Positions 477 to 54,525 of a stretch of 64,000 bases of DNA are shown here, one piece after another. The stretch covers positions 1 to 64,000 of the forward strand of contig CALUVE010000010.1 in NCBI GenBank assembly GCA_944324135.1, written 5' to 3'. The stretch comes from Candidatus Gastranaerophilales bacterium (GTDB lineage Bacteria > Cyanobacteriota > Vampirovibrionia > Gastranaerophilales > Gastranaerophilaceae). The notes beneath the pieces were generated by a model that worked only from the letters and a program-made list of their open reading frames with translations, searched no databases and was not told the DNA's origin. Both the position numbers and the translations under genes were made by a program. The number at the start of each line of letters is the position of its first letter. Positions within the stretch are counted from its first letter, which is position 1.

Positions 477-530
477 TTAAAAGCCTTACCGCAAGAGTAT
501 TTTAATAGTAAAAAACTCATATTCCAAATA

Positions 531-563
531 AAATTCCCTGAAAATTGAATTAGCAGGGAATTT
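531..563. terminator. Second hairpin with near-identical stem
   Basis: A perfect 10-bp stem (531-540 with 554-563) has a 13-base loop, an A-run on one side and TTTTT on the other. Its core AATTCCCTG is the same as in the hairpin at 443-476, so the two are probably duplicates. It may back up termination in either direction. The rest of 433-699 shows no gene. Confidence 0.55.
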
Positions 564-699
564 TTCTCTATAAATATTCTATTTGTAGGGCCTATAAATA
601 GAGCCTCTTGCTCACGTGTCCGCCCTCTCCAGTTTATAATAAAAAAGCCCTGCTAATCCGAATAGCGAAAGAATTGAGCCGGCAAAGGCAATTTTTCAA

Positions 700-2427
700 C
701 TACATTACCTTGATTGTATAGATTGGGCGGTAGTCAAGAGTGAGTCTGTCTGTTTTTACTGCGTTTTTTATATTCAATGATTCTGCCGGCTGTGAGAATT
801 CTAAACGCTCTACACTACGGAATTGCGGCAGGATTTTTAATTCTTTTATTAAAAACTTTACTACCTCTATCTTTTCCGGATTCGTACTGTCTACCCACAA
901 AACTTTCGGATTTGTCCCAAAATTTCCAAGATATAAATTCACACTATCTTCTTTTTGGTTTCCGTAACCTAGTTTATATCTGCCATTAGATAGTTTGTAT
1001 GTTCGGGCGTTAATATATTCTACCATTTCCGGCGCTAAATCTTTTTTGATATCAGAATCATTTATTGTAAGCACGCATAGTCTGTCCAGTTCTTGTCTTT
1101 CGCGGCTATTCAAGCCTGAACTATTTTCTTTATGCAATAAACTTATTCTTTTTATATTATCATCAACCAGCATCTCTGCTAACTGCTGCCGCTCACGTAC
1201 TGACAGGTTACATACCTCAAACAACTCCCGCAACATCTCAGAATCAGGTTTTGTAATAGCTTTGTTCAATATTTTTTTTATCCTTATACTGTTATTATAT
1301 GTTTCTTGTGAAACATCCCGTCCACCTTGCGCTAACACTTCTGCCAAATGTTCCGAATAAGATTTTTGAGGTTCTGCAATATACCGGTATAACGCTTCTC
1401 TGGATGATTTCTGCAATCCTCCGGTGGAAAACGCTCCGGAGGTTTCATCCGGTACACAAAAATTTGAAAACAACTTGACAGGAACATTATTCTCTATAGA
1501 AAGTAAATATAATTTGTTGTTTCGTTTTAAATTATACAAATTTTGCCACGTTTCAAACGGCATATCTAAATCCTCTATGTCCTTTAGAGAGAGAACTTTC
1601 AACTGCCCCAAATACTCTCTGTCTCTATCAACAGAATCCTGTAGAACAGCCGCTATATTCACCTTGTCAGGATAATCAACATATACATATTGCAGCTTTC
1701 CGTCTCTTGTCAGTAAATCCTGATTCACCAAATGCGGAACTTTACTCGTTATTAAAAAAGTAAGTGCATTGCCTTTATCTGACATTCCAACAGGTTCTTC
1801 ACTACAATAATCTGCAACCCCTTTCATCAAATTTACTATAATTTGATTATAGTCATTTTGAACGGTAAGTTTCTTCTCTGCATCCGTCAAATAAAAATCA
1901 AGCGTACTCTCGGCATCAACAGAATTCACTCCGAAAAAATTGTCTGCATTTTCAATGTAAACTATTGTCTTTGTCTTATTTTGCAGATACTGTGTTTTAG
2001 AATCCCGCAATATACGTTTTACATCTTTTTCAAACAATTCTTTTGGAATACCTGTCAAATCAATTATTTGTATATTTTTACCGACAATTCTATTTGATAT
2101 ATAATCCTTGAATAAATTTATTTCATCATCGCTAGTCCCCGCAAGCATAAAAATCGGCGGCATCTTTTTCCCCTTGCGAGAATTCTGTCTCAACAGCGGC
2201 TCAAGAAATTTCAGCTCTATCTCCTGTTTTTCCGGACGATTAGATATAAAGCCAAAATCTTTTTCTGCCCCTTTGAAGTTCACTAAATCTCTATACACAT
2301 ATTTATAGCCGCTCAGGCAAATTTTCCCGTCAGATATCCTATCCGGTACCGGTCTGGTAGAATTTTGCGGCTGTTGTATATTGTTTTGAATCTGCAGATA
2401 ACTGTAATGAACTGGTAAAATTTTCAT
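700..2427 (-). CDS. Degenerate AAA+ ATPase-like protein (last gene of the AAA/ankyrin operon)
   Basis: This 575-residue protein is a paralogue of the AAA+ ATPase encoded at 4561-6417. Both share the stretch around LLTRDGKL, the preceding sensor-1 strand (FLITSKVPHL here, FITTNYPHL there) and a long C-terminal helical region. Where the paralogue has the P-loop GATGTGKT, this protein has AGTSDDEIN (about residues 96-104). Its Walker B-like strand reads TIVYIEN (154-160). It should therefore not bind or hydrolyse ATP in the usual way and may be a structural or regulatory partner of the active paralogue. The N-terminus carries VNFKGAE (49-55), a tag also seen in its neighbours. It starts 8 bases after the preceding gene, so co-transcription is likely. 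No signal peptide is visible. Function unknown. Confidence 0.8.
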   Translation of the reverse strand: MKILPVHYSYLQIQNNIQQPQNSTRPVPDRISDGKICLSGYKYVYRDLVNFKGAEKDFGFISNRPEKQEIELKFLEPLLRQNSRKGKKMPPIFMLAGTSDDEINLFKDYISNRIVGKNIQIIDLTGIPKELFEKDVKRILRDSKTQYLQNKTKTIVYIENADNFFGVNSVDAESTLDFYLTDAEKKLTVQNDYNQIIVNLMKGVADYCSEEPVGMSDKGNALTFLITSKVPHLVNQDLLTRDGKLQYVYVDYPDKVNIAAVLQDSVDRDREYLGQLKVLSLKDIEDLDMPFETWQNLYNLKRNNKLYLLSIENNVPVKLFSNFCVPDETSGAFSTGGLQKSSREALYRYIAEPQKSYSEHLAEVLAQGGRDVSQETYNNSIRIKKILNKAITKPDSEMLRELFEVCNLSVRERQQLAEMLVDDNIKRISLLHKENSSGLNSRERQELDRLCVLTINDSDIKKDLAPEMVEYINARTYKLSNGRYKLGYGNQKEDSVNLYLGNFGTNPKVLWVDSTNPEKIEVVKFLIKELKILPQFRSVERLEFSQPAESLNIKNAVKTDRLTLDYRPIYTIKVM

Positions 2428-2435
2428 CTTTTTTA

Positions 2436-3329
2436 TTATTTATTTTGATTTTTCTTAGCATCCTGATAGAGATTGCGCAGAGCTGCTTCCAGTGTATTTA
2501 CACGCTGCACAAATACTTCTTTATCTTCTGGCGGAATCTTCAAATCGTCTGCCCCGAGCTTGAAGTCATGAAGATGTTTGTAACTTACAGAGGTACGCTC
2601 AATCTCATCCAAAAATTTGAATGCCGTATCTTTACTCATTTCTCCTGAATATTTGTAGAATAATTTTGCTAAATTTGCAGGGTCGCCGTTGCCTTTAACT
2701 GTCTTTAAAATATTACCTTGTCTGTCATGAGGGATTGCAAATTTACTGTAAACATCTGCATATTTGCCCAAAATTTTGTCTGTTACAGGTTTGAACTCTG
2801 CAAAAACATCTATGGCTGAAGTAACTTCATCCATAAATGACATCCGGTTATTTTCATACGGAGAGAAATTGAAATCTTTTATCAAATGTCCGTTTTGTTC
2901 AAACCAATCCAGCCCATCAAGCATTGATTCTTCTGTTTTGGAGGCTTCATTTGTTATTGATTGAACTTTTTTTACTATTACAGATTTATCCTTAAAATCA
3001 GCCTCTGTTATCTGAATATTACGAAAAACAGAAGAGTTTTGAGGTTTTATAGGAGCTTCTGACAACGGTTCTATGTTAGGTTTCGGAGCTTTTTTGAACA
3101 AATTTGAAAAGAACTGCCCTATTTTTTTTCTGTTTAACAGGATTACAACAGCACCAAGAACACCAAGTGCGGCTCCTGAATAGGCAATTACTTTTTTAGA
3201 AGATATCCCGTTATTGGCTGAAGTGCTGGTTCTGCCCTTTGTTTCTGCCGGTTTTGACATATTCATCGTACTGAATACTGAACTGTTGCTGAATGCTATA
3301 TTATTATTGATTCCGATTTTCATACTCAT
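2436..3329 (-). CDS. Unknown membrane-anchored protein, paralogue of the next gene upstream
   Basis: This is a 297-residue protein with a short Ser/Thr-rich N-terminus, one transmembrane helix at about residues 47-66 followed by basic residues (RKKIGQFF), and a helical domain from about 105 to the end. That domain aligns along its length with residues 201-388 of the protein at 3382-4548 (shared VIxKKV, LDWFxxNG, DxFAEFxP, MxKDTAxxF and YxHxHD patterns). The topology suggests a soluble C-terminal domain held at the membrane; which side it faces cannot be fixed from sequence. I recognise no known family. It sits between the degenerate and the intact AAA+ genes of the operon. Confidence 0.75.
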   Translation of the reverse strand: MSMKIGINNNIAFSNSSVFSTMNMSKPAETKGRTSTSANNGISSKKVIAYSGAALGVLGAVVILLNRKKIGQFFSNLFKKAPKPNIEPLSEAPIKPQNSSVFRNIQITEADFKDKSVIVKKVQSITNEASKTEESMLDGLDWFEQNGHLIKDFNFSPYENNRMSFMDEVTSAIDVFAEFKPVTDKILGKYADVYSKFAIPHDRQGNILKTVKGNGDPANLAKLFYKYSGEMSKDTAFKFLDEIERTSVSYKHLHDFKLGADDLKIPPEDKEVFVQRVNTLEAALRNLYQDAKKNQNK

Positions 3330-51647: not shown

Positions 51648-52787
51648 ATGCTTTGGCAAACTAACAAAAATGAGGAGAATAATGTTCAGCAGCAGTTATT
51701 TAATAATAACCCTCTCAAGCTCTCCAAAATTCTTGTTATAGTAGAAGATGACAGGCAGATTTCATATTACAAATGCATCTTGCACAGTTTCAATGTCAGA
51801 TTTTGCAATATTAATAATATTAACACCGGTGCAAATACACTTTCATTACAGTCTGCAGAGGTATGCATTCTGTGCTGTGACAAAAAACTCAAGAGTTTTT
51901 ACAAACTTTTAAAATATATTAAAGCGCTCGAATCACAAAAAGTCCAAATTCCGCTGGTTATATTCATTGCTAAAAAACACGACGTAGCTCATATTGAACA
52001 CGCATACAAACACGGAGCTGATTTATATCTGACAAAACCATTCAACCGGAATATTTTGATAGCTGAAATTCACCACCTTATTGAACGAAAAGCTGATTAT
52101 CAAAACAGTATGGAGATGAAAGAATCTTTTCTTGCAATGGTCACGCACGACTTAAAAACGCCTGTAAACGCATCTATCCTCGCTTTCAATCTTTTGATGA
52201 ACAACGAAATCAGCGAAGAATCTGATAGACAGGAGATTATGTCCCAGATATTCAGTTCAGTAAAATATTCAAAACTTATGATAGATAATATCTTAACCCG
52301 TGCCAAAATTGAAAACGGCAAATTAGAAATTGTAAAACGCCCCCTCTGTTTTAAAAAACTTGTCAACAACTGCATAAGACAGGTCGAATTTTTATCAAAT
52401 GACAAACATCAAATGATTAATCTGCATTGTGATATTCCGGAAATACAGGTAATGGCAGATGAGATGGAGTTGTCGAGAGTAATTCTGAATCTTATGAGCA
52501 ACGCAATAGAATATGCGCCAGCCGGAACAATTATAGACATAAACCTTAATCAAAATGCTTCCGTAACAAGCTTTGCAATCACAAACACCGGCCCGGGTAT
52601 TAACCTCAAAAATCCCAATGATGTTTTTGACAAATATATTTCCTACGCTAAAAAACACAAAAAGGTAGGAACAGGACTCGGCTTGTTTGTTGCAAAAGAA
52701 ACCATTCTGGCGCACGGCGGAAGCATTAATGTCACAAGTTCCGCAAATAATTTCACAACCTTTCAATTTTCTATTCCGAATAATTAA
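51648..52787 (+). CDS. Hybrid protein: degenerate receiver fused to histidine kinase
   Basis: The 379-residue protein starts with a receiver-like domain (about 25-145) that keeps the acidic pair E33-D34-D35 and Lys130 (LTKPF). The phospho-acceptor strand reads EVCILCCDKK, with Cys76/Cys77 where Asp is expected and an Asp one residue later. HisKA (H167 in VTHDLKTPVN) and HATPase (NLMSNAIEYA, VGTGLGLFVAKE) follow. It is soluble, with no membrane helix, so the receiver may bind a ligand rather than accept phosphate. A 19-residue overlapping ORF with a strong GAGGAG site lies in another frame at 51682-51741. No cognate regulator is adjacent. Confidence 0.88.
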   Translation: MLWQTNKNEENNVQQQLFNNNPLKLSKILVIVEDDRQISYYKCILHSFNVRFCNINNINTGANTLSLQSAEVCILCCDKKLKSFYKLLKYIKALESQKVQIPLVIFIAKKHDVAHIEHAYKHGADLYLTKPFNRNILIAEIHHLIERKADYQNSMEMKESFLAMVTHDLKTPVNASILAFNLLMNNEISEESDRQEIMSQIFSSVKYSKLMIDNILTRAKIENGKLEIVKRPLCFKKLVNNCIRQVEFLSNDKHQMINLHCDIPEIQVMADEMELSRVILNLMSNAIEYAPAGTIIDINLNQNASVTSFAITNTGPGINLKNPNDVFDKYISYAKKHKKVGTGLGLFVAKETILAHGGSINVTSSANNFTTFQFSIPNN

Positions 52788-52796
52788 ATTGACGCT

Positions 52797-52920
52797 ATAA
52801 ATTTTTAAAACTGCGTCATACTGGGCGTTAGCGAAGTTTCTCAATAAAAAGATTCTTCGGACTTTAGTCCTCAGAATGACGGATTTTTATAGTATTAGTG
52901 GTATTTGCTACATAAATCCC
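52797..52920 (-). mobile_element. MITE-like element R2, copy with one end lost
   Basis: Read on the minus strand it starts GGGATTTATGTAGCAAAT and contains CCGTCATTCTGAGG, GAAGAATC and CTTCGCTAACGCCCAGTATG like the full copies. The right terminal repeat is missing. It lies just upstream of the leader promoter at 52933. Confidence 0.65.
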
Positions 52921-52932
52921 TAAAAATTTATA

Positions 52933-52959
52933 TTGACATATTTTTTTATTTTTTATAAT
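52933..52959 (+). promoter_or_regulatory. Promoter of the Met-rich leader
   Basis: TTGACA at 52933-52938 and TATAAT at 52954-52959, both perfect hexamers, with a rather short 15-base spacer. Confidence 0.75.
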
Positions 52960-52989
52960 CTCAAATTAGATAAAAAAGGAAAAAATATT

Positions 52990-53079
52990 TTGAATATACG
53001 TTCTTTTGAAAAAATGTCAGATATGATGATGGATATGCAAATGATGATGTGCATGTCAGCTTCAGTCTGCCGAATGTAA
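52990..53079 (+). CDS. 29-residue Met-rich leader peptide
   Basis: TTG at 52990 lies 9 bases after AAAAGGA. The peptide is MNIRSFEKMSDMMMDMQM, then MMCMSASVCRM, ending at the TAA 53077-53079. Eleven of 29 residues are Met (counting the initiator), with 8 Met in codons 12-22. The last codons overlap an RNA segment (53055-53069) that can pair with 53101-53115. A start at the in-frame ATG 53014 has no ribosome site. This looks like a cis-acting leader peptide whose translation speed or product controls the gene at 53179; it could instead be a functional Met/Cys-rich metal-binding micropeptide. No homologue is known to me. Confidence 0.7.
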   Translation: MNIRSFEKMSDMMMDMQMMMCMSASVCRM

Positions 53080-53115
53080 TGAACATTTTTTCAAAATTAA
53101 CAGATTGAAGCTGAC
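53055..53115 (+). promoter_or_regulatory. Antiterminator hairpin overlapping the leader peptide
   Basis: Segment A GTCAGCTTCAGTCTG (53055-53069) pairs with B CAGATTGAAGCTGAC (53101-53115) over 15 bp with one G-U. Forming A:B uses up B and so prevents the terminator B:C at 53108-53136. Confidence 0.75.
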
Positions 53116-53141
53116 GGTAAACTAACGGGTCAGCTTTTTTT
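53108..53141 (+). terminator. Attenuator-type intrinsic terminator (B:C)
   Basis: AAGCTGAC (53108-53115) pairs with GTCAGCTT (53129-53136), with a 13-base loop and T-run to 53141. It ends 37 bases before the ATG at 53179 and shares segment B with the antiterminator. Confidence 0.8.
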
Positions 53142-53178
53142 ATGCGTGTATTACAGAATTATAAAGGATTTAAAAATT

Positions 53179-54525
53179 ATGATATCGGATTATAATGTTA
53201 CATTTACTGCAAAAACTCCACGTAAAGTGGGTAAAATTTCAAAGGATTTACTGGATAATCTTCCCCCGAAAAACAGATTTCTGGCAAAAGTGATAGAGAT
53301 GAAAGAGGGAGATTCAGGGTTGTCGCATTCAAGATTTGCACAGGCAACTGCGACAAACTGGCTGCCAAAAGCGATATTTGCGAGAAGTTTTGCGGATCTG
53401 GCAGAGATAAGTTTTCTGGAAATTTTTGAATCTGCGCTGTTTTTCTACCTGCCGTCGCTTATGGGAGAATTTCTATCCAGACGGAAGATTTTTTCAAAAT
53501 TTTTGCCTGAGAATTTACATAAAAGTATCTCCAAACCTGTCTCCGAAATCGCGGATACACCGGCAGCTAAAAAACTTCTTCCTGTAAAAGCCGGCATTGT
53601 ATTGAGTTGTGCTGCGATACCTGCAGCCGAATACGGTTTGAGTTTTGCCAAAAATCTTTTCACGCAGAAACTTTTTCATAAAGCCGATTTCAGCAATGTT
53701 GTAAATCTTGATAAAACCCAAAAAGAAAACCCTGAAGTGCACGAAAGAGTTGAAAAAAGCGCAATTTCACATCTAAAAAAAGCGGGAATATTTTCAGCAG
53801 CAGCATTTGGGGCTAGCCTCGCTCTTGCTTCAGCAGGTCAAAAAAGCAAAACTATTCAAAAAGCGTGTGAAGTTTTCCTCAATCCGGGCGCGAAAATCTA
53901 TCAACAGTTTGAGAAAAAAGGGGTTAAATCAAAGGGATTTAAGAATTTTCTGGACACTTATATAAATCTTGATTTTGCTCGGAAATCAGACGGTTCTCTG
54001 GCGCTTGGAAACGGACAGCTTGCTGTAACAGTGCTCTCTGGTGTCGCAGGATACTTTGACGCCGCAAAAGACAGAGGCAAACTTGAAGTTCAGGAGGTAG
54101 CAACAAGAGTTCCTGTAATCGCACTGTATACAATATTCGGAAGCACACTTTTTGATGCAGGATTTAAAAAACTTCTCCACAAAAACGGAAAGTATCCTGA
54201 AATTCTCTCCGATAACCTTAAAACCGCTTCCTTAAACGATATTCCGAAAATCGCAAAACAACTTGCAGGAGATGACAAGAACCTTTACAGACAAAAAATA
54301 GCAGAACTCTTTAAAGGAAAAGCCGTCATCTCTATGGTGCCGTTCCTGTTCAGTCTTGTCGTTGTAGGCGGATTGCTTGCGCTTATATCAAGAATTTGGA
54401 CACAATACCGTTATAATCACGGAGTTGGCAACGCAAACTTTTTAGAACAAACTCAAAATGCACAAACCTCTTTTACAGCTCTTAAACCATCAAAAGACAG
54501 CCCGTTTAATGTGTTTGTAAAATAG
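53179..54525 (+). CDS. Unknown membrane-associated protein behind the Met leader
   Basis: The start at 53179 follows AAAGGA; a longer frame from a GTG at 53146 overlaps the terminator. The 448-residue product begins MISDYNVTFTAKTPRK (FTAK tag). It has several moderately hydrophobic segments (about 75-95, 150-165, 205-225, 315-330, 395-415, the last the strongest: MVPFLFSLVVVGGLLAL), separated by Lys-rich stretches. No known family recognised. Control by the Met-rich attenuator is inferred from position. The downstream XRE gene is convergent, 11 bases away. Confidence 0.7.
   Translation: MISDYNVTFTAKTPRKVGKISKDLLDNLPPKNRFLAKVIEMKEGDSGLSHSRFAQATATNWLPKAIFARSFADLAEISFLEIFESALFFYLPSLMGEFLSRRKIFSKFLPENLHKSISKPVSEIADTPAAKKLLPVKAGIVLSCAAIPAAEYGLSFAKNLFTQKLFHKADFSNVVNLDKTQKENPEVHERVEKSAISHLKKAGIFSAAAFGASLALASAGQKSKTIQKACEVFLNPGAKIYQQFEKKGVKSKGFKNFLDTYINLDFARKSDGSLALGNGQLAVTVLSGVAGYFDAAKDRGKLEVQEVATRVPVIALYTIFGSTLFDAGFKKLLHKNGKYPEILSDNLKTASLNDIPKIAKQLAGDDKNLYRQKIAELFKGKAVISMVPFLFSLVVVGGLLALISRIWTQYRYNHGVGNANFLEQTQNAQTSFTALKPSKDSPFNVFVK

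Follow-up and report, generated by a model that had tools for sequence, protein, structure and literature searches.

Control by methionine is known to be exerted through S-box/SAM riboswitches, Met T-boxes and MetJ, which, like the device described below, respond to methionine status, but which sense SAM or uncharged tRNA or use a repressor. Both SAM riboswitches and Met T-boxes have been documented in this role (PMC3766115). The attenuators of E. coli and Salmonella (trp, his, leu, thr, ilv and pheA) resemble the device in design: the leader contains a run of regulatory codons, antiterminator and terminator structures are alternatives to each other, and the position of the ribosome decides between them. 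Codon-run attenuators of this sort are textbook regulation, and methionine is a special case since it also starts every protein. None of the attenuators listed for E. coli and Salmonella has Met codons (PMC1183508), and a survey of Actinobacteria found no Met-codon leaders upstream of Met operons (PMC1262725). The sequence-only reading that preceded this analysis knew of no described Met-codon attenuator, and our literature search, which left out most subscription papers, agreed with it in finding no described case of Met codons in leader peptides. As far as we know, the leader described here would be the first methionine version of the classic codon-run attenuator.

The window, that is, the whole 64,000-nucleotide stretch of DNA that was analysed, comes from a Candidatus Gastranaerophilales assembly of 1.82 Mb in 47 contigs, and its nearest relatives are Candidatus Gastranaerophilales MAGs. 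With high confidence, a leader in this window is best explained as a putative ribosome-mediated transcription attenuator that would sense charged elongator methionyl-tRNA; this explanation rests on comparison of sequences, and there are no RNA or protein data. By this means the Gastranaerophilales, which are gut bacteria, appear to turn on a membrane protein whose function is unknown when methionine is short. In contrast to the E. coli and Salmonella attenuators, the codons are Met, no segment-1 hairpin is conserved in the Met type, and the target, rather than a biosynthetic operon, is one gene whose function is unknown, in another bacterial group. The Met codons, the lack of a conserved 1:2 hairpin, the order, the target family and the swap of codons between paralogs are all new here.

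The leader lies on the forward strand between a response-regulator/histidine-kinase gene (51648-52787) on its 5' side and a 448-aa gene that begins with an ATG at 53179. The intergenic sequence at 52781-52900 carries CTCAGAATGACGG, which was also seen 5' of the leader of another family member (L006) and looks like a dispersed genome repeat.

A sigma-70-type promoter was recognized at 52933-52959, with TTGACA at 52933-52938, TATAAT at 52954-52959 and a 15-nt spacer, slightly below the usual 17; a TTGAC at most 90 nt 5' of the start of the leader is shared by 98 of 119 non-redundant members of the family. It is followed by a Shine-Dalgarno sequence, AAGGA (52976-52980), and by a 29-codon leader ORF (52990-53079) with a TTG start and a TAA stop at 53077-53079. 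The predicted peptide, (M)NIRSFEKMSDMMMDMQMMMCMSASVCRM*, has 11 Met if the TTG start is read as Met, eight of them in codons 12-22, where they form the putative regulatory run MMMDMQMMMCM (53023-53055). Among the 75,280 eleven-codon stretches in the six frames of the window, only overlapping stretches at the leader locus had at least seven Met. Every coordinate that the sequence-only reading gave proved right. Translation of the leader is inferred from sequence only, though from an ORF and Shine-Dalgarno that are conserved over the order.

The end of the ORF contains segment A (53055-53069), the predicted 5' arm of an antiterminator; segment B (53101-53115) is common to antiterminator and terminator, and segment C (53129-53137) is the 3' arm of the terminator. 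The intrinsic terminator (53107-53141) consists of a B:C stem, 53107-53115 with 53129-53137, and a T-run. The target gene (53179-54525) has its own Shine-Dalgarno, AAAGGA, at 53163-53168.

RNA polymerase would start from the promoter at 52933-52959, with a ribosome translating the leader ORF behind it. In ample methionine, this ribosome would cross the Met codons onto A and then reach the stop; A could not reach B, B would pair with C, and transcription would end in the T-run. Under methionine shortage, the ribosome would wait at the Met codons 5' of A, allowing A to pair with the nascent B, and C would be left without a partner while the polymerase went on to transcribe the gene at 53179. It is inferred that the pairing takes effect while the RNA is being transcribed and that amino acid starvation is the signal.

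Folding of the window's leader was in agreement with most of this scheme. The 15-bp pairing of A with B and the terminator formed by B and C, both proposed earlier, were confirmed: 15 of 15 A:B positions pair, with one G-U, and B:C forms a 9-bp stem followed by the T-run. The hairpin folded alone gave z = -2.6, and the segment from A to the terminator gave z = -3.1 against shuffles (1 of 200). When the ribosome was modelled as a footprint masked from the leader RNA before folding, a stall at codon 13 or 18 gave A:B and a ribosome at the stop gave B:C. The earlier proposal that stalling in the Met run frees A thus held at these two codons but not at codon 20, where the footprint overlaps part of A and B:C was formed. 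Without a ribosome, the minimum-energy fold of the whole leader includes the terminator because 53004-53016 pair with 53084-53096, a long helix between the 5' part of the ORF and the region after the stop which showed no conservation across the family (p 0.74).

Pairing of A, B and C was much better conserved than the sequences themselves. In the 58 non-redundant Met leaders, the A:B duplex averaged -17.3 kcal/mol with its own B and -11.1 kcal/mol with a swapped B taken from other species, a mean gain of 6.2; the native pair was better in 57 of the 58 (p 5e-11). B:C was 6.8 kcal/mol stronger than with swapped partners, again in 57 of 58 (p about 1e-11). B occurred as 50 distinct sequences, and in 55 of the 58 leaders at least six bases of B paired with both A and C, so that the two predicted helices are mutually exclusive. 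Within the window's subclade of ten sequences, 86.7% of A:B cells pair, and this fell to 21-44% when the alignment was slid by one to three columns. Six of the 15 A:B pairs in this subclade were changed on both sides, a number reached in none of 500 shuffles (slid controls, 0-1). B:C was counted per sequence, as the multiple alignment is out of register at C in some rows. Both A:B and B:C pairing also hold in the Trp leaders described below, and an intrinsic terminator with a T-run before the target gene, a requirement of an amino acid attenuator, is met in the family.

The one classic element for which no signal was found in the Met leaders was the protective 1:2 (pause) hairpin, where own and swapped partners gave -5.4 and -5.2 kcal/mol (p 0.81); the signal is present in the Trp paralogs (p 0.002). 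The absence of this hairpin lowers the claim for the Met leaders to that of a variant attenuator. This hairpin is part of the trp layout in its classic form, and the basic logic of an attenuator works without it. A default ON state without translation, which the missing hairpin might imply, was rejected, as the minimum-energy fold of the free RNA holds the terminator in 54 of 58 leaders.

The spacing of the elements also fits a ribosome as the sensor. The Met leaders have a median of 6.5 Met codons upstream of A, and in 36 of 58 the last Met before A starts 13-18 nt 5' of A; most others, including the window's, have a Met nearer to A. A distance of 13-18 nt is about that from the A-site to the front of the ribosome, and therefore A would just stay clear of a ribosome waiting at this codon. 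Relative to the stop, the median position of A is -26 to -19 and B begins at about +25, so a ribosome that had moved on would rest either on A or in the gap that separates A from B. Many relatives have an A whose end lies about 19 nt before the stop, and in these a ribosome that had reached the stop would be placed between A and B with A uncovered. The earlier claim that the ribosome at the stop covers A and leaves B to C was accordingly supported by the model of the window's leader but not, as to the covering of A, in these relatives. Antiterminator folds had minimum energy in 4 of the 58 leaders when free, in 25 when stalled and in 7 with a ribosome at the stop, and energy minimization still favoured the terminator in 32 of 58 under the modelled stall. 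As the modelled stall does not flip all folds, the decision must be partly kinetic, which is expected for attenuators.

The target family was collected as 202 members, 123 of them non-redundant at 88% identity, and a short ORF followed by a terminator was found upstream of nearly all 123. The window's group has Met-rich leaders: the 58 non-redundant members, which include the window's own, plus an eroded leader (L142) and one before a masked gene that was recovered by pattern (L088). The sequence-only reading had named as its test a search for related genomes that lack the Met run or break the A:B and B:C pairing; its proposal passed this test, and the Met run was kept in the 58 relatives, down to about 40% protein identity. 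The trp-type logic it proposed is thus supported by a Met run and a three-way pairing that were retained in relatives, the pairing with compensatory changes. One member (L036) has two Met-rich leaders in series before a single target gene, each with its own terminator, between 435 and 200 nt ahead of where the matched protein starts (5' of position 3246). No such leader was found in the distant relatives of ~350-380 aa (L103, L104 and L209-L214), which serve as a natural negative control.

A paralog clade has Trp-rich leaders with WW or WWW in 61 members, plus one with a single Trp. Both leader types are present in the window's own genome, where the Trp-type leader (L093) reads MNYIQQNKTQNWWWLQIGAGTFCWR; a further Trp-rich example (L015) is MINLQQNQKNNSWWWLANSASGFCWR. 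The Trp leaders (for example L093 and L019) have the same target family, the same promoter-leader-terminator-gene layout and, in many cases, a terminal regulatory codon, but differ from the Met leaders in their codons, in having a 1:2 hairpin like that of the classic trp attenuator, and in a stronger helix between leader stop and target start. The Trp members group in a single clade of the protein tree (support 100), and the distribution of leader types over this tree takes no more than the minimum of six changes. One member of the Met group (L098, G015:C33) has an Ile-rich leader, MITSLNIAIISLIIISLLDSKRLLYCECEI, with eight Ile in 30 codons and Ile as its last codon; it sits upstream of a gene at 504-2087 (-), and just one genome of its genus was available. 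The occurrence of Met, Trp and Ile codons in one predicted device before one protein family indicates codon-specific sensing, to which the alternatives are hard to fit. Paralogs with a swapped codon amount to a natural codon-swap experiment that backs the mechanism. A point against the reading is that Met has only one codon, so sensing of the codon and of the residue cannot be separated by synonymous changes.

This replacement of codons bears on the possibility, also raised by the sequence-only reading for copper or antibiotics, that copper, an antibiotic or a secretion defect causes a Met-rich nascent chain to arrest the ribosome, with the RNA switch reading the stall. The leader peptides are indeed Met-rich, contain some Cys and His, and in most cases have RM or RMC at the end. 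However, paralogs whose device is equivalent have Trp or Ile as the residue concerned, the Met residues vary freely in number and order, as do the residues other than Met, and many Met leaders lack Cys. Conserved residues at fixed distances were not found; only Met richness and the RM ending recur, and that ending is tied to a nucleotide motif. An arrest peptide is therefore disfavoured, and we consider it unlikely.

The motif in question, CGAATGTR (53071-53078), lies at the end of the leader ORF, and CGAATG was found just before the stop in 50 of the 58 Met leaders. The Ile leader of L098 keeps CGAATGTG in another reading frame; a motif that survives out of frame is probably read as nucleic acid, and on the same evidence the RM ending is unlikely to have a meaning at the level of the peptide. 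The pattern ATGATGATGN{15,45}CGAATGTR matched 51 genomes of the order, and the matches inspected were just 5' of a family gene except in two genomes, which have matches outside the family and one of which holds a true leader too. Another pattern, ATGATGNNNATGATG, was tried in the window's own genome and rejected; it missed the leader and matched two other loci, where the inspected stretch contained no family gene. The TGYG end of this motif resembles the elemental pause consensus known from NET-seq work. A consensus RNA polymerase pause has been described (PMC6336406). It is possible, although no more than a guess, that CGAATGTR is an RNA polymerase pause or another nucleic-acid-level signal; a pause there would keep the polymerase waiting for the ribosome.

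Segment D (53075-53081), at the leader stop, is weakly complementary to D' (53149-53155), 5' of the target Shine-Dalgarno; in the family, D is the leader stop region and D' the region at or just 5' of that Shine-Dalgarno. Translation controlled by this helix, or coupled through it to the leader, could be the main control, with the terminator-like hairpin merely ending a leaky leader transcript. D:D' beat swapped partners in all 26 Trp leaders with a terminal Trp (p 3e-8) and in 35 of the 58 Met leaders (p 8e-4), with clear examples in L019, L020, L113 and L122. Against this, the B:C stems end in T-runs, A:B covaries in nearly all members, D:D' is weak in the window (about -6.6 kcal/mol), and the swap test gave no D:D' signal in the 19 Trp leaders without a terminal Trp. 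We regard control mainly at translation as very unlikely, and D:D' is more likely a second layer on top of the predicted methionine attenuator. The terminal regulatory codon goes with the stop-to-start helix, and a ribosome held at that codon would keep D:D' open, which suggests a second, translational layer of control. Short leader peptides that combine transcription and translation attenuation are known from tlrB and vmlR of Bacillus subtilis (PMC12288461). They resemble what D:D' would imply here, but respond to antibiotics and not through a regulatory codon run.

A conserved structured RNA (riboswitch, T-box or protein-binding leader) with incidental Met codons, which the conserved hairpins ahead of one gene family might suggest, is hardly tenable, as the window and seven sampled relatives had no Rfam match and covariance models gave only tRNAs, three kinds of single-residue-rich ORF occupy the same place, and the A, B and C sequences differ among members with no conserved aptamer-like core.

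The protein that the putative attenuator would control was modelled by AlphaFold2 as confident and all-helical (pLDDT 89, pTM 0.84), and its hydropathy points to one strong membrane helix and several moderate ones, so it is probably a membrane protein. Searches of Pfam, NCBIfam, PHROGs, PADLOC and PDB sequences gave nothing usable on function, and Foldseek found no structural match in the PDB. The family was present in 105 of 192 genomes of the order, and in a phylum-wide sample of 194 genomes matches were found only in members of the window's own family; across the sampled genomes the protein is confined to the order. The target gene is mostly followed by opposite-strand or unrelated genes, which give no neighbourhood clue to function. 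In the window's genome, a profile search detected no MetE, MetH, S-methyltransferase domain, MetQ or full-length TrpB, and therefore methionine and tryptophan must probably be imported. The Trp paralog was also found in several genomes that have trpB. Plausibly, the targets are part of methionine and (in the paralogs) tryptophan acquisition, an inferred role that fits but is unproven for proteins with no known relative. The device assigns this likely physiological role to a relative-less protein family of gut bacteria that have not been cultivated and that, by prediction, synthesize neither Met nor Trp.

A broader picture is offered only tentatively and may well not hold: order-specific membrane proteins for amino acid acquisition would each be assigned Met, Trp or, rarely, Ile by the codon run in an attenuator that they have in common, and a translational layer would be added where the leader stop pairs with the target start and is held open by the terminal regulatory codon. 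If this is true, the codon run reveals the substrate of each uncharacterized protein of the family.

A further observation concerns the N-termini of the target proteins (53179-54522 in the window), in which a motif like F-K-G, F-Q-A or F-T-A recurs. It is also seen in unrelated neighbours, with FKGPLDG and FTGPLDG in the genes preceding three of the loci (L031, L032 and L036), and is possibly a sorting or processing signal.
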